A stretch of DNA of 37,093 nucleotides from a virus. Below the pieces are notes generated by a model, which worked only from the letters and a program-made list of their open reading frames with translations, had not been told where the DNA came from and searched no databases. Made by a program: the position numbers and the translations under genes. The first letter of the stretch is position 1, and each line of letters opens with the position of its first letter. Location: the IMG/VR virus record IMGVR_UViG_3300018910_000006, positions 1-37,093 of that record; one strand, 5' to 3'. Shown piece by piece: positions 22,161-33,745 of this stretch.

Positions 22161-22691
22161 TCAGCGGACGTGGACGTCCCGGAGCGGATCGACGAGGCCG
22201 ACCACCGCGCACTGCCACGGGGCGCGGGAGACCACGGGGAAGTCGTCCAGCCGTGGATCGTCCAAGAGGACGGCCCGGGCGGCGGTCAGCCCTGACCACT
22301 GGGCGAGGGCCAGGAGGTGGTGCTCGGTGCACTCCCACTCGTGGGCGTCGCCGGGCCAGCGGCCAGCGCCGTGGACCGCTCCCTCCAGCTCGGCCGCGGA
22401 GAGGCGGCCGTTGTCGTACAGGGCGCGGGCGCGGTCGCAGTCGGGCCCAACCATCGCCACCGCGGCGCCCGGCCGGCAGCGGGCCCACAGCGCCGTCAGG
22501 GCGCGGGCGGCGGTCCTGTACGGCAGGTGCTCCAGGACGTGGCCGAGGTAGACGGCGGTGACGTCCTGCACGGCGGGCGGGAGGTCTTCCAGGGAGCCGA
22601 CCAGGTCCGGGCAGACAGTGTCGGTGGAGACGACGTCGAGGTTGGTCCAGCCGTCGGCGTAGTGGTCGCCGCAGCCCACGTTGAGCCTCAT
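22161..22691 (-). CDS. SAM-dependent methyltransferase
   Basis: This 176-residue protein starts at ATG 22691 and overlaps the upstream glycosyltransferase stop as ATGA. The N-terminal LNVGCGDHYADGWTNLDVV is motif I of class I methyltransferases, with an acidic residue for the ribose following in LDV. VYLGHVLEHLPY is the usual post-motif helix of sugar/glycan methyltransferases related to COG4627. The C-terminal part has HEWECTEHHLLALAQWSGL. Its location behind two glycosyltransferases and two sugar-nucleotide enzymes suggests methylation of a sugar on a phage glycan. DNA or protein methylation cannot be excluded. Confidence 0.85.
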   Translation of the reverse strand: MRLNVGCGDHYADGWTNLDVVSTDTVCPDLVGSLEDLPPAVQDVTAVYLGHVLEHLPYRTAARALTALWARCRPGAAVAMVGPDCDRARALYDNGRLSAAELEGAVHGAGRWPGDAHEWECTEHHLLALAQWSGLTAARAVLLDDPRLDDFPVVSRAPWQCAVVGLVDPLRDVHVR

Positions 22692-23380
22692 CGTGCGTCG
22701 CCCCTTCCCGGGAGGCCTGACGTGTTCTGGCCGTGGTGGTGCCAGGTCCAGGTGATGTGCGGGTGGTGGACGATGCGGGCGCCAGCGGCGAGGCAGCCGA
22801 GGGTGAATGCCCAGTCCTCCCCCGCGTACCGCCGGTGCGGGGAGCGCAGATCGCCTTCGGTGCGGAACCCGACGGACTGGGCGAGGTCGGTGCGGACCAG
22901 GACGGTGATGGTGGTCTGCTGCGGGTCCTCGTTGGACCAGGAGCGGCCCAGCATCCACGGGCGGGGGTCGGTCCCGCCGGCGACGCGGTAGTGGCTGTAG
23001 ACGTAGTCCGCGCCCGTGGCCCGGGCGCAGGCGAGGAGCTGCTCGAGATGGGTGGGGTCCATCTCGTCGTCGGAGTCGAGGAACGCCACCCACTCGGTGC
23101 TCACCGCTTCCAGGCCGCGCTGGCGGGTGGCGGCCGCGCCCTGGCCGTCGGCGTCCTCGACGGTGTGCAGGGTGTGGCGTACGGTCTGCCGGCCGACGGA
23201 GTCCACCGCCCGGTAGAGCATGCCGTTGTCGGCGCGGGCCGGGTGGTAGGGGATGACGACGCTGACGTTGATCGGGGGGCGCCGGGCGGGGACGGGGTGC
23301 CCGGCCGGGTCCATGACGGTGGTGCCGTCCTGCCCGCGGCCGGAAGGGTCGACGCCGACGGTGAAGGGCTGGCCGTTCAT
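22688..23380 (-). CDS. Glycosyltransferase, GT2 (GT-A fold)
   Basis: This 230-residue protein has VSVVIPYH (39-46), VEDADGQGAAATRQRGL and the metal-binding LDSDDEMDP (acidic motif 102-107), the standard GT2 signature, then YAGEDWAFTLGCL as the ED-type catalytic region near the C-terminus. It is shorter than many GT2 enzymes but holds the full core. The first ~30 residues (FTVGVDPSGRGQDGTTVMDP) are odd: they look like the first strand of a terminase nuclease. ATGA overlaps link it to the genes on both sides. The acceptor is unknown; virion protein or teichoic/cell-wall material are possibilities. Confidence 0.85.
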   Translation of the reverse strand: MNGQPFTVGVDPSGRGQDGTTVMDPAGHPVPARRPPINVSVVIPYHPARADNGMLYRAVDSVGRQTVRHTLHTVEDADGQGAAATRQRGLEAVSTEWVAFLDSDDEMDPTHLEQLLACARATGADYVYSHYRVAGGTDPRPWMLGRSWSNEDPQQTTITVLVRTDLAQSVGFRTEGDLRSPHRRYAGEDWAFTLGCLAAGARIVHHPHITWTWHHHGQNTSGLPGRGDAR

Positions 23381-24648
23381 GACTTCCTGCCGATGCGGAT
23401 GGTGGTGACGTGGGGCTGGTCGGGCATGTAGCCGTGCGGGTCCAGGACGACGGAGCCGGGGTAGAACGGCATACCGCGGAACACGTCGTGCCGGGTGGTG
23501 ATCACCGCTACGCGCGCGCTTCCGGGTTCGAAGGGGGTGCCGTCGACGTAGGGGTCCCAGTGCTCCACGGGCAGGCCGCGGGCGCGGAGTTGATGGGCCA
23601 GCAGCAGGCCGGCCGAGCCGTTCGTCAACGAGACGTTCGGCTTGTACGCCTTGCCGAGGAGAGTGATGGGCAGGCGGGTCAACTGGTGCCAGTGCTCGAC
23701 GAGGTCGGCCAGCCACGCCGACTGTGCCTCCCGGGCGCGGGAGACGAACCCCATCAGGTCGACGGACAGGCTCAGGCGGTCGGCGAGCCAGGACATGGCC
23801 TGGTTGTCGCGGGGGTGGCAGCCGCCGGAGTCGCCCATGCCGCCGCGCAGGTACGCCGCGCTGGTGATGCGGTCCGTCGCCAGCGCCAGGCCGTCGCTGA
23901 TGTGGTCGACGTCGGCACCGGTCTTGTGGCAGATCTCCATGAGGGCGTTCGCGAACACGATCTTCATGGAGATGAACGTGTTGTAGGCGACCTTCAGCAG
24001 CTCGGCGGACTCGATACTGACGGCGTGGACGGGCCGGTCGTGGAGGGTGGCGTAGAGGTCGGCGACGTCGGCTAGGGCGGCGGGGTCGTCGGAGCCGAGG
24101 AGCACGAACTCCGGGTGGAGGAAGTCCCGCAGGGTGGTGGTCATGGCGATGAAGTACGGGCCGTACACCAGGCGCAGGTTCGGGCCGCACAGCGGCGCGA
24201 GGTGCGCGCGGGTGGTGCCGGGCAGCACCGTGGAGATCACCACGACCGTGAGGCGTTTGTCCTGCTCCTCTGCGGCCTTGGCGAGGTCGCGTACGGCTTG
24301 GATGAGGTAGCCGTATTCGAAGTCCACCGGTCGGCCGGGCATCGGCGTCTCGCCGCCGTACCGGGGGTCGTGCGGGGTCTGCACGGAGACGAACACGATG
24401 CCGTCGCCGACTTCCTGCACCAGGTCGTAGGTGTCGCCCACCAGTTCCAGGCCGTAGCCCTTGCGGGGGTCGTTGCCCTGCACCAGCTCCGGCAAGCCCT
24501 CTTCCTCGTGGGGTTGGGCGGCCCCGGCGAGGATGTCGTACGGGCGGGAGTCGCAGTCGTAGCCCACCACCCGGTGCCGGCCGTGCTCGGCGAGCGCGAG
24601 CGCGCACGTCAGTCCCAGGCGGCCCAGGCCCATCCATCCGATCGTCAT
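23377..24648 (-). CDS. UDP-glucose/GDP-mannose dehydrogenase family protein
   Basis: This is a 423-residue protein. The N-terminal Rossmann motif is GLGRLG (7-12), followed by STVLPGTT (139-146) and the substrate loop ESAELLKVAYNTF with K219 and N223. Catalytic C277 lies in GMGDSGGCHPRD, matching the family motif G-x-G-x-GG-x-C-x-PKD with Arg instead of Lys. A C-terminal LLGKAYKPNVS segment completes the NAD-sugar fold. It probably oxidises a nucleotide sugar to the uronate form with two NAD+. GGAGG precedes the ATG, which overlaps the upstream gene stop as ATGA. Which sugar it uses is not decidable. Confidence 0.9.
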   Translation of the reverse strand: MTIGWMGLGRLGLTCALALAEHGRHRVVGYDCDSRPYDILAGAAQPHEEEGLPELVQGNDPRKGYGLELVGDTYDLVQEVGDGIVFVSVQTPHDPRYGGETPMPGRPVDFEYGYLIQAVRDLAKAAEEQDKRLTVVVISTVLPGTTRAHLAPLCGPNLRLVYGPYFIAMTTTLRDFLHPEFVLLGSDDPAALADVADLYATLHDRPVHAVSIESAELLKVAYNTFISMKIVFANALMEICHKTGADVDHISDGLALATDRITSAAYLRGGMGDSGGCHPRDNQAMSWLADRLSLSVDLMGFVSRAREAQSAWLADLVEHWHQLTRLPITLLGKAYKPNVSLTNGSAGLLLAHQLRARGLPVEHWDPYVDGTPFEPGSARVAVITTRHDVFRGMPFYPGSVVLDPHGYMPDQPHVTTIRIGRKS

Positions 24649-25328
24649 CTGTCCTCCGGGGTGAGCATGCGGCGCAGGGCGCGGACGTCGTCGCGCCGGG
24701 CCTGCTGCATCGCAGGCGAGTAGAACTCTGTGGTGCGGTAGCCGGCGGCGGACTCCGCGCGGGTGGCGTCGTCGTGTCCGCCGGTGAGGTCGGCGCGGTC
24801 GTGCAGCACGGTGACGGGGATGCGCCGCTGCAGGCCGAGGGTGTCGCCGAGGTGCTGGATCCACGAATCGCAGTGCGGGCTGAGGCTGACGTGGCCGAGG
24901 GCGGTGGTCCAGGCCGCCGGCCAGATGGGGAAGGTGTTGCAGCCGGGCAGGTCGTTGGAGTGGGGCCACAGCACTCCGGGCTGCTGATCGGTCACCACGG
25001 CGTCCCAGCCCTCGGTGAGCATGCGGGCGTCGTCGTTCCACAGCATCAGCCACTTCCCGTGCGCCATCGTCGCGAGGCGGTTGACGTACTTGTGGAGGTT
25101 CGCGTAGCCGTACCGCAGCGGCGCGACCCACACCACCGCGCTCATGTCGAGGGCGGCTCTGGCGGTGGCGGGGTCGTCGGGGTCGGCAGCCACCAGGACC
25201 TGGAGGCCGTCCGGGTCCGCGGCCAGGGTGCGCAGCGTGGCGATGCTCTCGGCGAGCGGGCCCGGCCGGCCACGGGAGGGCAGCAGGATGGAGATCACGT
25301 CCCCTGCCCGTCCGTCTGGCCCCTTCAC
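24645..25328 (-). CDS. Glycosyltransferase-like protein (GT-A fold candidate)
   Basis: The start was set at GTG 25328, which overlaps the epimerase stop as GTGA; an alternative GTG at 25298 has AGGGGAC upstream and would remove ten residues. ISILLPSRGRP near the N-terminus, then VLVAADPDD and KWLMLWNDDARML (a DxD-like acidic patch) match the fold of GT2-like proteins common in actinophages. The C-terminal part has LPGCNTFPIWPAAW, SPHCDSWIQHLGDTLG and RTTEFYSPAMQQ. It lies between two sugar-nucleotide enzymes, so it most likely transfers their product. Catalytic residues are less clear than in the other glycosyltransferase. Confidence 0.75.
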   Translation of the reverse strand: MKGPDGRAGDVISILLPSRGRPGPLAESIATLRTLAADPDGLQVLVAADPDDPATARAALDMSAVVWVAPLRYGYANLHKYVNRLATMAHGKWLMLWNDDARMLTEGWDAVVTDQQPGVLWPHSNDLPGCNTFPIWPAAWTTALGHVSLSPHCDSWIQHLGDTLGLQRRIPVTVLHDRADLTGGHDDATRAESAAGYRTTEFYSPAMQQARRDDVRALRRMLTPEDR

Positions 25329-26347
25329 GCTGCGGCCATCCACGAGGGGCGGTTGACGTACCACTCGACGATGTCGGTGAGGGTCTCCTCCAGCGGCCGC
25401 GCGGGCTTCCAGCCGTGAGCGGCGAGCTTGGAGCCGTCCAGGGCGTATCGCAGGTCGTGGCCCGGGCGGGAGGAGTGGAAGGACACCAGGTCGTACTTCA
25501 GGGGCCGGTTGAGGATGTCGGCGATAGTCTGGGCGATCTCGAGGTTGGTGCGCTCCTCACCGACGACGTGGAACATCGACGGCCGGTCGTAGGCCGGGTA
25601 CATCTGCGGGGTGACAGTGGTCAGCAGGTGCACCCAGGCGGAGCCGAACTCCCGGGCGTCGATCCAGTGCCGGCTGCCGGGCACGCCTTCGGGAGAGGAG
25701 TGGATCTGGACCGTCTCCCCCGCCAGGATCTTCCGGATCACGGTGGGCACGAACTTCTCGCAGTCCTGCCCGGGCCCGATGAGGTTCATGGTCCGGGTCA
25801 GCACGACCGGCACCCCGTAGGTACGCCACCACGCGGTAGCCAGCGCGGACTGCGCCGCCTTCGATGCGGAGTAGGGGTTGGACGGGAGGACGGTGTCCCA
25901 CTCGCGGTGCTTGTAGTCGCCGTACGCCGGCCCGTACTCCTCGTCCGTGCCCATGTGCAGCACCATCCGCGGCTGTACGCGGCGGGCATACTCCAGCACG
26001 TTCATCATCAGCTCGACGTTGTTCCGCACGAACGGGCCTGGGTCGCTGATGCTGCGGTCGACGTGGGACTCGGACGCGATGTTCAGCACGTAGTCGACGT
26101 GCCCGAGTGCGTCGGCCAGCTGCGGCGGGATCGGGCAGGCGAGGTCGTGCATGAACGTAGTCACCCGGTTGTTCCACGCTCCGGGCTCCGGGGCCTGGTC
26201 GAGCGCCTCGTGCAGTCGCAGGGTGTTGCCGCGGTGCCGCAGCGTCCACGGGCACAGGACCTCGGCGTCTGTGCGTGCGAGCAGCTCGGCCAGGACGTGA
26301 GAGCCGACGAACCCGGCCGAGCCGGTGAGCAGGATGCGTGTCGTCAT
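25325..26347 (-). CDS. NAD-dependent sugar epimerase/dehydratase, RmlB-like
   Basis: This 340-residue short-chain dehydrogenase/reductase of the extended type has GSAGFVG (9-15) for NAD binding, GTDEEYG (133-139) and the catalytic Y159-x3-K163 (PYSASKAA). The adjacent Asp135-Glu136 pair is typical of dTDP-glucose 4,6-dehydratases (consensus TDEVYG), so a 4,6-dehydratase activity is more likely than simple epimerisation. The ATG at 26347 overlaps the terminase small subunit stop as ATGA and has no ribosome binding site of its own, so translation is coupled. It would supply a 4-keto-6-deoxy nucleotide sugar for the glycosyltransferases that follow. Confidence 0.88.
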   Translation of the reverse strand: MTTRILLTGSAGFVGSHVLAELLARTDAEVLCPWTLRHRGNTLRLHEALDQAPEPGAWNNRVTTFMHDLACPIPPQLADALGHVDYVLNIASESHVDRSISDPGPFVRNNVELMMNVLEYARRVQPRMVLHMGTDEEYGPAYGDYKHREWDTVLPSNPYSASKAAQSALATAWWRTYGVPVVLTRTMNLIGPGQDCEKFVPTVIRKILAGETVQIHSSPEGVPGSRHWIDAREFGSAWVHLLTTVTPQMYPAYDRPSMFHVVGEERTNLEIAQTIADILNRPLKYDLVSFHSSRPGHDLRYALDGSKLAAHGWKPARPLEETLTDIVEWYVNRPSWMAAA

Positions 26348-30231: not shown

Positions 30232-31323
30232 TCAGCGGCTGGTGAGTTCGCCGTCGCAGACCTCGTCGATGGTGTAGGCGATCAGACGGGGGAGGAACTC
30301 CAGCGCCCTGTTGAGGAGGGACTCCAGCGGGACCGCGTAGCGGCTGCGGTCGACGTCGATATGGTCGCTCCACTCGGCGGGCTGGTAGCGGGCCAGCATC
30401 GAGAGTGTGTGGAGCACGGCCCACCAGGTCATCAGGGGGTGGAGGCTGGCCGTGTTCGCGCCCAGGGCGGGGAAGAAGTAGCGAGCATCGCCGTAGCTGC
30501 GGGGAACGGTCTTCCAGAACCCCAGTTGCTCGGCGGGGGTGCCGATCTGGCCGTCCGGGACCTGCCAGTTCATCCGCAGTTCGCTCCAGCCGTCAGAGCG
30601 GTGGACGGTGAAGTCCGGCTTCGCATCCCGGCAGTCGGGATCCAGGACGTAGGAGTGGTAGCCGCGGGCGTCGGGGAAGGACGACAGGTAGTCGTCCAGT
30701 GCCTTGGTGGGGTTCGGTGAGCTCGCGACCCACGGCGGGAATTTACAGACGTCCACGCTGACCAGGGGGTGCGGCTCCTGGGTCTCGCGGGCTTCGTAGA
30801 CGTGGCGGTCCTCGACGCACAGGGGGGTGCGGCGGGATTCGTCTGCGTCTTCCAGGGGCGTCAGGCGGTTCTCCGGGAGGCTGTCCCACAGGGCGGCGAA
30901 GCGGATGGCGTCGCCTTCGTCCCATAGGGGCGAGCCGAGAAGTTCTGACAGGCGTACGAAGCTGCCGGCGTTACCGGCCTTGCGGGTGTAGACCGGCACG
31001 GCGGGCAGCGGGCCGGCGAGGGTGCCCTTCGCCTGGGTGATGCCGTGGCCGGTCAGCTGCCAGCGGTCTGCCGTGGCGGAGTTCGCCGCGGCCGCGATCG
31101 CGCGGCCGGCCTGGCTGAGGCCATAGAAGATCAGGATGGGGCTCGCTGCCGGGCTGGCTCCGGCGGCGGCGCGGAAGAACTGCTCGGCCTGCTCGAGGGC
31201 GGATATGTAGGTCTTGCGCCGCTCGGGGGTGGTCGCGGCGACGGCGGGCGGTCTCCAGCGAGTGCCGCGCAGCCACCCCCATACGTCGTCGGTCAGGTCG
31301 AGCGGGTTCATGCGCGCGATCAC
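30232..31323 (-). CDS. YaaC-like protein
   Basis: This 363-residue protein starts at GTG 31323, just past the stop of the regulator (AAGGGACAG precedes it). The core AEQFFRAAAGASPAASPILI followed by FYGLSQAGRAIAAA and then LTGHGITQAK resembles Bacillus subtilis YaaC, which has a similar FYGYSQLMKA...HGVTTRK arrangement. The C-terminal half has HPLMTWWAVLHTLSMLARYQPAEWSDHI, also typical of the family. The function of YaaC is not established. In accessory phage regions such genes are candidates for defence or exclusion, but this is only positional. It is followed by the convergent terminator. Confidence 0.75.
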   Translation of the reverse strand: MIARMNPLDLTDDVWGWLRGTRWRPPAVAATTPERRKTYISALEQAEQFFRAAAGASPAASPILIFYGLSQAGRAIAAAANSATADRWQLTGHGITQAKGTLAGPLPAVPVYTRKAGNAGSFVRLSELLGSPLWDEGDAIRFAALWDSLPENRLTPLEDADESRRTPLCVEDRHVYEARETQEPHPLVSVDVCKFPPWVASSPNPTKALDDYLSSFPDARGYHSYVLDPDCRDAKPDFTVHRSDGWSELRMNWQVPDGQIGTPAEQLGFWKTVPRSYGDARYFFPALGANTASLHPLMTWWAVLHTLSMLARYQPAEWSDHIDVDRSRYAVPLESLLNRALEFLPRLIAYTIDEVCDGELTSR

Positions 31324-31326
31324 AGC

Positions 31327-31761
31327 TCACTGTCCCTTCTTGCGGTAGCCGCGCCGGTTCGCCAGGGCGGCCGCGGCGGTGCGACCGTACCAGCGGTTGA
31401 CGCCGCCGGTGGTGTCGTCGGGCTCGGGCCAGCGGCGGGGGCCGCCCTTGCGGGAGCGGGAGAGGTCGGCGCGGATGGTGGTGGCGCTGACCCCGACCCC
31501 GGCGTCCTCCAGCTGCTGCGCGGTGTAGAGCCGGTCCGGCTCCAGCTCGACGGCCTGGCGCTTGACGTTCCGGCTGATCCAGTCGTCCACGGCCCGGCGG
31601 TCGTACTCGTTCCAGCGGCCGCGCTTGCCGACCGGGGCCGGCCATTCAGGGTGGCGCGCCCAGGTGTTGCGGATGGTGGTGACCGGGCGGCCGATGCGGG
31701 CGGCGATCTCGTCGACGGTCTCGCGGATGGCTGTCGGGCGGGGGCGGCGGTTGGCTACCAT
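31327..31761 (-). CDS. DNA-binding protein with two helix-turn-helix segments
   Basis: It starts at ATG 31761 behind AAGGACGGACC, giving 144 residues. There are two helix-turn-helix-like parts: DEIAARIGRPVTTIRNTWARHPEWPAPVGK near residues 15-45, and LYTAQQLEDAGVGVSATTIRADLSRSRKGG near 80-110, each followed by a basic, Trp-containing wing. This pattern resembles excisionase/MerR-type or AlpA-like phage regulators. It could regulate the genes of the accessory block. It lies just upstream of the YaaC-like gene and directly downstream of the three-cassette array. Confidence 0.75.
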   Translation of the reverse strand: MVANRRPRPTAIRETVDEIAARIGRPVTTIRNTWARHPEWPAPVGKRGRWNEYDRRAVDDWISRNVKRQAVELEPDRLYTAQQLEDAGVGVSATTIRADLSRSRKGGPRRWPEPDDTTGGVNRWYGRTAAAALANRRGYRKKGQ

Positions 31762-31873
31762 GGTGGTCCGTCCTTTCGAGGATGGGTCTTCGACCGGCAA
31801 GGGTTTCGTGACGCTGCTTCGGCGGTGTGGGCTTCGGCCCGGCCCTCGCCGGTCTTTCTCTTTGTGCGGGCGG

Positions 31874-31902
31874 CCCGCCCCCGGCTGGGTGCCGGGGGCG
31901 GG
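31874..31902 (-). terminator. Terminator of cassette 1
   Basis: The perfect 12-bp stem CCCGCCCCCGGC / GCCGGGGGCGGG with loop TGGGT lies 9 bp past the stop of the cassette 1 gene. The CCGGC-TGG(G/C)T-GCCGG centre recurs after the other two cassette genes. Confidence 0.75.
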
Positions 31903-31911
31903 TCGATGGGG

Positions 31912-32286
31912 TTACTCCTCGGACTGGCTGGCGAGCCAGTTGAGGAGGTCCCGGAGCGCTTCCTCGGCCATCGTCAGGTTCGACAGCAGGCCCAGGACTC
32001 GCACCCGGTCGAACTCCTCGCCTACCAGCAGGCCGTACAGGTCGACCGCGGCCAGCCAGTGAGTGCACCCGATGGAAAGGTTCACCTGGTGCTGCTCGGG
32101 GATCGGCTGGTCGTCGGCGATGTGCACGACGCGCCGGACGGCGGGCACCATCTCCAGGTTGGTCACGACGCCGATCGGCAGGCCGATCGGGATCGGGAGA
32201 CCGGAGCAGGAGGCCACGATCACGAGGTAGACCTTCGCGATGTGCTCCCACAGGTGCTGGAGTTCGTCGTCCCTCTGGTCAGACAT
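31912..32286 (-). CDS. Cassette 1 paralogue, unknown function
   Basis: This 124-residue protein starts MSDQRDDELQHLWEHIAKVYL. Shared features with cassettes 2 and 3: a helical start, an LPIPIGLP motif (~residues 30-37), VRRVVHIADDQPIPE (~50-65), a C-x-HWLAA-[VE] motif and a helical C-terminus (SNLTMAEEALRDLLNWLASQ). I recognise no family. It is translated from AGAGAGG, in a leader that can fold to hide that site. No signal peptide or clear membrane segment is present, although VIVASCSGLPIPIGLP is hydrophobic. Confidence 0.75.
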   Translation of the reverse strand: MSDQRDDELQHLWEHIAKVYLVIVASCSGLPIPIGLPIGVVTNLEMVPAVRRVVHIADDQPIPEQHQVNLSIGCTHWLAAVDLYGLLVGEEFDRVRVLGLLSNLTMAEEALRDLLNWLASQSEE

Positions 32287-32287
32287 C

Positions 32288-32385
32288 TCCGTCCTCTCTG
32301 GAGTTGTGATGGGTCCAGAGGTGCGGGGTTCGTGGCCCCGCCCTCTGATGAGTACTTTACAGCACTCACTTAGTGGATTGCAACA
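32288..32385 (-). promoter_or_regulatory. Cassette 1 leader: promoter and switch-like hairpins
   Basis: Reading on the minus strand, TTGCAA (32383-32378) is 18 bp from TAAAGT (32359-32354). The leader RNA can form hairpin 1 (12 bp, CAGAGG-GCGGGG arms over 32316-32347, one bulge, 7-nt loop) or hairpin 2 (7 bp, CUCUGGA / UCCAGAG, 32296-32320). The two share bases 32316-32320, so they exclude each other. The Shine-Dalgarno AGAGAGG (32299-32293) overlaps the 3' arm of hairpin 2. Confidence 0.75.
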
Positions 32386-32403
32386 CCATCACCCAGAGAG
32401 GGA

Positions 32404-32434
32404 GGGGCACCCCGGCTGGCTGCCGGGGCACCCC
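32404..32434 (-). terminator. Terminator of cassette 2
   Basis: The inner stem CCCCGGC / GCCGGGG has loop TGGCT; outer GGGG/CCCC pairs flank a 2-nt mismatch. It lies 6 bp past the stop of the cassette 2 gene and has the same loop as the third cassette. Confidence 0.7.
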
Positions 32435-32440
32435 CTTACC

Positions 32441-32812
32441 TCACTCCTGCTCCCGCAGCACCTCTTCGAGGCCTTCGAGAGCCACCGACGCGGCGGTGAG
32501 GTTGATCAAGGCTTGCTGAGCCCTGATCTCGTCCCACCCGCGCGCGGTGAGCAAGGTGAACATCTCGGCTGCGCTCAGCCAGTGGAGGCACACCCCCCAG
32601 ACACCGGCCTTGACCTCGTCGGACACCGGCTGGTCGTTGATGATCTCAACCACCCGCCGGACCGCCGGGACGATCTCCTTGGAGTCGTAGGCCGGGCCGC
32701 TGGGGAGGGAGATGGGAATCGGGAGGCTGGCCACAAGGGCCACGAGGAGGTCGTAGAAGTCTACGAGCTCGGCCGCCACGTTCCGCATGCCCCACTCGGA
32801 CGCGTCAGACAT
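32441..32812 (-). CDS. Cassette 2 paralogue, unknown function
   Basis: This 123-residue protein starts MSDASEWGMRNVAAELVDFY. The shared landmarks with its paralogues are LPIPISLP, IVPAVRRVVEIINDQP and CLHWLSAAEM. Most other positions differ, so the protein sequence is much more diverged than the nearly identical leader before it. The C-terminal third is helical (INLTAASVALEGLEEVLREQE). No family is recognised. Confidence 0.75.
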   Translation of the reverse strand: MSDASEWGMRNVAAELVDFYDLLVALVASLPIPISLPSGPAYDSKEIVPAVRRVVEIINDQPVSDEVKAGVWGVCLHWLSAAEMFTLLTARGWDEIRAQQALINLTAASVALEGLEEVLREQE

Positions 32813-32816
32813 GATG

Positions 32817-32914
32817 TCCGTCCTCTCTGGAGTTGTGATGGGTCCAGAGGTGCGGGGTTCGTGGCCCCGCCCTCTGATGAGTACTTTACAGCACTTGCTT
32901 AGTGGATTGCAACA
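32817..32914 (-). promoter_or_regulatory. Cassette 2 leader: promoter and switch-like hairpins
   Basis: This 98-bp leader differs from the cassette 1 leader at two positions, both in the promoter spacer. The TTGCAA and TAAAGT boxes, both hairpins and AGAGAGG are unchanged. The distance to the start codon is 4 nt longer than in cassette 1. Confidence 0.75.
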
Positions 32915-32948
32915 TCCATCGGCGGAGGGATTCCAGGCCGGACAGCAG

Positions 32949-32987
32949 CAGGGGTCGCCCCCGGCTGGCTGCCGGGGGCGACCCCTG
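32949..32987 (-). terminator. Terminator of cassette 3
   Basis: The perfect 17-bp stem CAGGGGTCGCCCCCGGC / GCCGGGGGCGACCCCTG with loop TGGCT lies 8 bp past the stop of the cassette 3 gene. It is the strongest terminator stem in the array. Confidence 0.8.
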
Positions 32988-32995
32988 TTGGAAGG

Positions 32996-33367
32996 TCAGC
33001 CCTCCCGCTGGTTACGGAACCACATCATCGCTTCGAGCCCCGCCTGATGCCCGGTCACCAGTACCACGCTGGCGCTGTGGATCCGGTGCCGTCGCGGCTC
33101 GACCTGGTCCAGGATGGAGAGTTCCGCCGCCGCCACCCACTGATGGCAGAGGAGTTCGGCGCTGATCTTGGGTTCCTCCGGGAGGGGCTGCTCGGTGATC
33201 AGCTCCGCCGCCCGGCCTACCGCCTCGATCCTCTCCAGGATGTCCGCCTCCCGGTCGGGGAGGGAGATCGGCACGGGGAGGAGATTGCAGACCGCGATGA
33301 TGGTCCGGTAGGTCGCCTCCAGGTGCTCGCGGAACATGTTCCGCATCCGGTCTTCCTGGTCAGACAT
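32996..33367 (-). CDS. Cassette 3 paralogue, unknown function
   Basis: This 123-residue protein starts MSDQEDRMRNMFREHLEATY. Shared landmarks with the other cassettes are LPVPISLP, GRAAELITEQPLPEE and CHQWVAAAELSIL. The C-terminus (SASVVLVTGHQAGLEAMMWFRNQREG) differs most. A fully conserved Cys in the C-x-HW/QW segment may be structural. No family is recognised. It is the first of the three in transcription order. Confidence 0.75.
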   Translation of the reverse strand: MSDQEDRMRNMFREHLEATYRTIIAVCNLLPVPISLPDREADILERIEAVGRAAELITEQPLPEEPKISAELLCHQWVAAAELSILDQVEPRRHRIHSASVVLVTGHQAGLEAMMWFRNQREG

Positions 33368-33371
33368 GACG

Positions 33372-33469
33372 TCCGTCCTCTCTGGAGTTGTGATGGGTCC
33401 AGAGGTGCGGGGTTCGTGGCCCCGCCCTCCGATGAGTACTTTACAGCACTTGCTTAGTGAATTGCAACA
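33372..33469 (-). promoter_or_regulatory. Cassette 3 leader: promoter and switch-like hairpins
   Basis: This 98-bp leader differs from cassette 2 at two positions. One is in the promoter spacer; the other changes an A-U pair in hairpin 1 to a G-U wobble, so pairing is kept. Boxes, hairpin 2 and the ribosome binding site are identical. Confidence 0.75.
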
Positions 33470-33529: not shown

Positions 33530-33745
33530 CTACACCAGGGCCCACCCCGACAGCCGGTCGTCCCGGCCGACGTCGGCCATCAGCACCTTGCCCGGCAACT
33601 CCTTGACGTCCACGCCGACCGCCTCAGCGATCTCGGCGGCCGGGTACCGCGCCGGCTCGTCCCGCTCCGCCGGCGGTACGTCGGCGACGATCTCGGCCTC
33701 GTCGCCGACGAGCAGCAGGACACGCACACGCACACGCTCGGTCAT
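33530..33745 (-). CDS. Unknown small acidic protein
   Basis: This 71-residue protein starts at ATG 33745 behind GAGGCTGACGA. It begins with a strand-like VRVRVLLLVGDEAEIVADVPPAE and continues with RYPAAEIAEAVGVDVKELPGKVLMADV and ends RDDRLSGWALV. No family is recognised. Four bases separate it from the next gene upstream, so both are one unit. Confidence 0.65.
   Translation of the reverse strand: MTERVRVRVLLLVGDEAEIVADVPPAERDEPARYPAAEIAEAVGVDVKELPGKVLMADVGRDDRLSGWALV

Follow-up and report, generated by a model that had tools for sequence, protein, structure and literature searches.

A phage-specific leader motif common to tandem small-protein cassettes and an adjacent winged-HTH gene in Streptomyces-type phages

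The window, by which we mean the whole stretch of viral DNA analysed (a 37-kb record of 37,093 nucleotides), carries three tandem cassettes, each with a leader, a small ORF and a terminator-like hairpin, followed by a gene for a predicted winged-HTH protein. As far as can be read from sequence comparison, what is new is that the same phage-specific motif is found in every cassette leader and in the leader of the putative regulator gene. The initial annotation had described the three cassettes and overlooked the motif in the leader of the adjacent HTH gene. On balance, we consider it probable that the array is a phage-specific autoregulated regulon with an acr-aca-like layout, of which the adjacent tandem winged-HTH protein is the most likely regulator. 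No earlier description of a regulon of cassettes and HTH gene was found in the sources searchable here.

The cassette array and its relatives

All three cassettes lie on the minus strand. Cassette A has its leader at 33368..33469, with a promoter, operator-like boxes, a hairpin and an RBS, an ORF of 123 aa at 33367-32996 and a terminator-like hairpin at 32946..32990 (inverted repeat I4). In cassette B, the leader (32813..32914) precedes an ORF of 123 aa (32812-32441) and a hairpin visible in the sequence at 32404..32434 (repeat D4), and cassette C consists of a leader at 32287..32385, an ORF of 124 aa at 32286-31912 and a hairpin at 31871..31905 (inverted repeat I18). The terminator hairpins are G+C-rich, and their loops read TGGCT or TGGGT on the plus strand, in agreement with the TGG(C/G)T loop reported initially. 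The repeat family (the 125-nt D1 family) stands far above chance, and its copies in the whole 37-kb record number three, all in the array. Tandem cassettes with near-invariant leaders and diverged ORFs, as first proposed, were thereby confirmed, with some corrections to the figures. The three-unit repeat is real, but the start-to-start distances are 555 and 526 bp and not about 510 bp; the leaders are nearly invariant, but an ungapped comparison over 98 bp gives 96 (A-B), 95 (B-C) and 93 (A-C) identities in place of the 94-96 claimed. The ORFs have the 123-124 codons described, and their products are 32-38% identical. LPxPIxLP is present in all three, whereas the two other stretches thought to be retained, RRVVEI-DQP and CxHW, are degraded in copy A to GRAAELITEQP and CHQW.

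Upstream of the array on the same strand lies a conserved neighbour of 71 aa, here called N72 (33530..33745; phrog_34071, E=3.5e-28). Downstream of the cassettes and likewise on the minus strand, the HTH gene (31327..31761, 144 aa), the proposed cognate regulator, is preceded by a structured 5′ leader at 31792..31854, with an outer stem GACCGGCGAGGG/CCCTTGCCGGTC and internal hairpins. After the HTH gene comes a YaaC-like protein (PF14175, E=3.5e-38; window 30232-31323), and ORFs resembling, by reading, a glycosyltransferase, a nucleotide-sugar dehydrogenase, a methyltransferase and an NAD-dependent epimerase lie near the terminase (window 22161-26347).

All three cassette ORFs match phrog_33636 over most of the protein, with E-values in the PHROGs of 4.1e-15 (A), 1.1e-11 (B) and 3.8e-20 (C). 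Both phrog_33636 and phrog_34071 are annotated as of unknown function, and the leader, the array and the HTH partner are not part of either entry. The AF2 model of the cassette C protein is a four-helix bundle (pLDDT 97, pTM 0.90). For the cassette proteins, no match rose above noise in Pfam, NCBIfam or PADLOC, and Foldseek and VIA-align returned generic helical bundles only, so that the fold indicates no function. The structure prediction and profile searches that had been suggested at the outset yielded a fold and a family, but no function was assigned. Guessing from the layout only, we regard the products as candidate early accessory, possibly counter-defence, proteins.

The array DNA, the cassette proteins and the HTH protein were without a match in 50,697 named phage records, plasmids likewise gave none for the leader and for one cassette protein, and early protein-pattern scans of viral and bacterial contigs gave one relative or none. 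With the better conserved N72 as bait, 16 loci were found in bacterial and 15 in viral sequences; further ones, including arrays of four and three, came from profile searching 393 Streptomyces genomes, and another 25 viral stretches from leader patterns. The scan of related phages for the leader, as proposed initially, thus resulted in 82 distinct aligned cassettes from 48 Streptomyces-type phages and prophages, with 1 to 4 copies per locus; five further copies lie outside the alignment since a -35 variant missed the cut pattern, and some of these copy counts are therefore low. The gene order N72, cassette(s), HTH is constant, with N72 syntenic in about 30 loci, except that in L027 and L030 the HTH gene has cassettes on both sides and that one L031 cassette is inverted. 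This second cassette of L031 (7590-7967) is located past the HTH gene and has kept an intact leader of its own. In L021 (1380-2028), between N72 and HTH, a decayed cassette retains just the C-terminal coding part and the terminator. N72 is separated from the first cassette by inserted genes, apparently on the opposite strand, in L018 (6200-7180), L028 (6200-7200) and L030 (4500-5500); one of these genes looks like that of a small HTH-type regulator and one is of about 60 aa.

L030 has five leaders, the fifth of which drives a DUF3846 gene (E=1.2e-9). At this site (L030:6029-6483), the same leader and terminator surround an unrelated protein, the sole ORF swap seen. An otherwise identical cassette with a different gene, together with copy numbers of 1-5 and the position of HTH between cassettes in L027 and L030, is what one would expect if identical leaders and terminators served as recombination ends for swapping ORFs, in the manner of moron or integron-type capture. 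However, all leader-borne small ORFs found but one belong to the same family, and the arrays are positionally orthologous between phages, where swapping should yield more ORF types; we therefore regard cassette exchange as very unlikely. Among 43 further leader matches, 41 precede members of the cassette family, one the DUF3846 gene, and one is a weak match to an HTH leader.

Leader anatomy and the shared motif

The leader of cassette A contains, on the minus strand, a -35 box TTGCAA (33467-33462) and, after an 18-bp spacer, a -10 box TAAAGT (33443-33438). Two operator-like boxes, ACTAAGCAAG (33458-33449) and ACTCATCGGA (33437-33428), lie 21 bp apart; they are followed by the hairpin loop motif CACGAACCCC (33418-33409) and by the RBS GAGAGGACGGAC. 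The motif CACGAACCCC recurs at 32863-32854 in cassette B and at 32334-32325 in cassette C. Among the relatives, every leader has a TTGCAA-like -35 box, and the -10 boxes are of two types, TGTAAAGT or CATAAT. Promoters of the TGTAAAGT type carry two boxes of about 10 bp, 21 bp apart and straddling the -10, which are direct repeats (for example, ACTAATCAAG in L079 and TCTTAGAAGT in L046, each present two times). The period-21 peak in these leaders is 0.385 compared to about 0.25, and the boxes of one leader agree at 5.8/10 positions versus 3.9/10 with the boxes of other genomes (0/20000 permutations). In leaders with a CATAAT -10, such as that of L076, dyads such as ATGGCATTCGATGCCAT are found in the spacer and not direct repeats.

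The hairpin that follows the promoter has an inner stem GGGG/CCCC and a loop CCRSRAA or GGTGASAG. Its outer stem varies by phage, and cognate arms pair at -7.4 kcal/mol versus -5.6 kcal/mol for permuted partners (0/20000). A covariance model of the leader (R1), run against 393 Streptomyces genomes, gave 20 matches, 19 of which are cassettes; the 20th is a weak, unrelated site. A leader match in G080 was rejected as chance. The bare 17-mer AGTGCTGTAAAGTACTC used as a search probe gave chance matches only, and an Rfam search returned only sub-threshold miRNA models. Promoter, covarying hairpin and phage-specific motif have been retained across dozens of phages, which supports the initial suggestion that the leaders are kept by selection.

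Each leader hairpin bears a motif of 6-8 nt whose variant differs between phages (CGCGAA, CGCAAA, CGGAAA, TGCGAA, CACGAA, CGCAAT, GGTGAGAG and GGTGACAG). The HTH leader of the same genome holds the variant of its cassette loops in 29/30 genomes, or 30/30 with the start of the L082 gene corrected, compared to 23% in permuted genomes (0/20000 reach the observed value). Loci held out from the discovery of the motif match in 14/14 cases, with 62% after permutation, these loci having fewer motif classes since part of the loop was preset by the search pattern. In almost every one of the 22 loci scanned, the motif occurs once more than there are cassettes, on the coding strand only. The window holds exactly four occurrences of CACGAA(A)CCC, in the three cassettes and before the HTH gene, where 0.28 would be expected; the fourth copy, CACGAAACCC, is at 31810-31801 (minus strand) in a stretch predicted to be single-stranded.

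In single-sequence folds, the HTH leader forms a long outer stem around hairpins and a single-stranded stretch with the motif. Cognate arms of this stem score -23.8 versus -19.2 when permuted (0/20000; 5′ arm at a fixed offset). RNAalifold on a MAFFT alignment of the HTH leaders, which was misaligned, found almost no structure, and no clear promoter of the HTH gene itself was seen. Another reading considered was that of the repeated hairpins as packaging signals, with the HTH gene as the terminase small subunit. Some HTH members do match terminase-small-subunit PHROGs, Nu1-type domains are among the top Foldseek matches, and the terminase lies a few kb downstream. Nevertheless, in L034 and L079 the large terminase follows separate TerS-like genes, recognised by sequence resemblance, and the elements lie in promoter-proximal 5′ leaders of single genes, which makes a packaging function scarcely credible.

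Divergence of leaders and ORFs

Over the 82 cassettes of 48 genomes, leader identity averages 81% within a genome and 55% between genomes, and cassette protein identity averages 31% within and 30% between. The arrays of the window and of L018 are positionally orthologous, with proteins 80, 59 and 41% identical (the ORF of cassette A being 80% identical to L018 cassette 1 and that of cassette B the ortholog of L018 cassette 2). The window leaders are closest to one another, at 92-97% versus at most 89% to L018. Five leader columns are fixed differently in the window copies and in L018 copies 1 and 2, and two of these, between the hairpin and the RBS, are common to all three L018 copies. Paralogous leaders are more similar than orthologous ones in 18/49 orthologous quartets, mostly from distant phages; between very close phages, orthologous leaders are more alike than paralogous ones. 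No excess of identity within genomes is seen in the alpha/beta arrays of L019-L046 (75 vs 74%). The gene conversion of leaders raised initially is thus partly borne out, by the within-genome identity and these 18 quartets, but is not universal; by these comparisons, homogenisation is real but slow.

The comparison of synonymous and nonsynonymous divergence proposed initially was run on orthologous cassette pairs and gave dN/dS values of 0.24-0.82, within the range of the neighbouring genes. These neighbour-like values speak against diversifying selection on the cassette ORFs. With dN/dS below 1 throughout, positive selection was rejected as an explanation of how the ORFs diverged, and the fast antigenic or exclusion-type diversification offered earlier as an alternative was not upheld. 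Rather, as judged from the related phages, in which they are already distinct, the three ORFs are old paralogs. They do form one known family, which the initial annotation held would weaken the cassette idea if ordinary tandem duplication accounted for it; the leaders of relatives are, however, not as divergent as the ORFs, the other observation that would have weakened it.

Ordinary tandem duplicates, with a strong promoter and UTR that are constrained and sometimes gene-converted but no dedicated phage regulator, would fit the 31/49 quartets in which orthologous leaders resemble each other no less than paralogous ones do, and also the L019-L046 arrays. We consider this explanation unlikely, because a generic promoter leaves unexplained both the phage-specific motif variants common to the HTH leader and the agreement of boxes within a phage but not across phages.

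The HTH protein as the putative regulator

The AF2 model of the HTH protein (pLDDT 87) has two winged-HTH domains, both with the pattern strand-helix-helix-strand-strand-helix, and its top Foldseek matches are winged HTH proteins, but with E>0.1. The family matches phrog_597/phrog_66 and DNA-binding and excisionase/regulator PHROGs. Promoter distance correlates with HTH protein distance at r=0.71 (0.80 in single-copy loci), compared to 0.37 (0.62) for the cassette protein and 0.32 (0.14) for N72, these being Mantel correlations that include shared phylogeny. HTH domain 1 carries most of the co-variation with the leaders (0.71-0.77). For the type-B (CATAAT) promoters alone, the correlations with HTH and with the cassette protein are equal, and in single-copy loci the leader UTR follows the cassette protein a little more closely than it follows HTH. 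The ranking of the genes is, in these sequence distances, the reverse of what linkage predicts, as the cassette gene sits between the leader and HTH.

The anatomy, the conservation, the sharing of the motif and the co-variation can all be read off the sequences, and the mechanism that we favour would build on them as follows. Each cassette would be monocistronic, with a sigma-70-like promoter and its boxes, a leader presenting the motif, one small protein and a terminator. The operator boxes and/or the leader motif would be recognised by the HTH protein (or, with lower probability, by a different phage-encoded factor), which would thereby set the expression of all cassettes and of the HTH gene itself, presumably by repression. 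Leaders would be matched within a phage because one regulator must recognise all copies: a single reader for n+1 sites would keep them alike, with the match shifting in step between phages. Selection and some recombination between copies would maintain this match, and the ORFs, fixed as old paralogs, would diverge at ordinary rates. Two winged-HTH domains in one chain would, from the model, suit repeats two helical turns apart. RNA binding has been reported for Aca2. It is possible, though on the doubtful side, that a single tandem winged-HTH protein recognises a DNA operator at the cassette promoters as well as an RNA loop motif in the cassette mRNAs and its own leader, the code being rewritten jointly at n+1 sites per lineage.

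Alternatively, the motif could be read by some other trans-acting factor (a phage protein, a small RNA, or a processing or antitermination factor), with the HTH gene merely co-regulated. The motif lies in the hairpin loop or junction of transcribed leaders, suggesting reading at the RNA level, the HTH gene has no visible promoter, and winged HTH proteins usually bind DNA. We nevertheless hold such a factor to be somewhat unlikely, since, overall, the leaders co-vary most strongly with HTH domain 1 and since, besides the weakly co-varying N72, HTH is the only strictly linked candidate.

In acr-aca loci, anti-CRISPR genes are followed by an HTH autorepressor (PMC9410906). As there, small diverse phage proteins lie beside a conserved HTH gene, with a regulator-specific site in the promoter region and, as predicted here, autoregulation. 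Unlike in acr-aca loci, promoter, structured leader and terminator are repeated for every gene in place of a shared operon promoter, the boxes are direct repeats with a period of 21 bp and not inverted repeats, and the HTH gene bears an extra copy of the leader motif. Membership in the acr-aca class thus fails on operator type and monocistronic design, and the resemblance appears to be one of layout. The nearest precedent for repeated start-proximal elements with a subgroup-specific consensus is provided by the SAS/ESAS elements of the cluster K mycobacteriophages, actinobacterial temperate phages; these elements include inverted repeats, and their consensus is common within the phage group and differs between subclusters (PMC3203893). 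Those elements, however, mark many unrelated gene families genome-wide, as opposed to one family at one locus plus its HTH neighbour, and the 13-bp GGGATAGGAGCCC by the start codon is absent here, the start-proximal sequence being AGAGAGGACGGAC. Direct repeats are bound by winged-HTH MerR-like proteins such as BldC (PMC5859096); Apl of phage 186, an RDF that is both excisionase and transcription regulator, has repeats one helical turn apart (PMC7498355), and RdfS is an RDF with a winged-HTH fold and direct-repeat sites (PMC11963761). The present protein resembles these in its AF2-predicted fold and direct-repeat sites, but differs in having two winged-HTH domains per chain, a repeat spacing of two helical turns rather than one, and sites at the promoters of paralogous genes. 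Each cassette is also like a moron in having, by sequence consensus, its own promoter and terminator within a phage genome.

In summary, the array is an example of a phage in which several promoters stay matched, as we propose, to a single regulator while the genes that they drive diverge. The dozens of naturally matched regulator/site pairs, a few letters apart, would make a protein-nucleic acid recognition code directly testable, and the locus draws attention to small Streptomyces phage proteins of an unexplored family, which are candidates for early or counter-defence factors.
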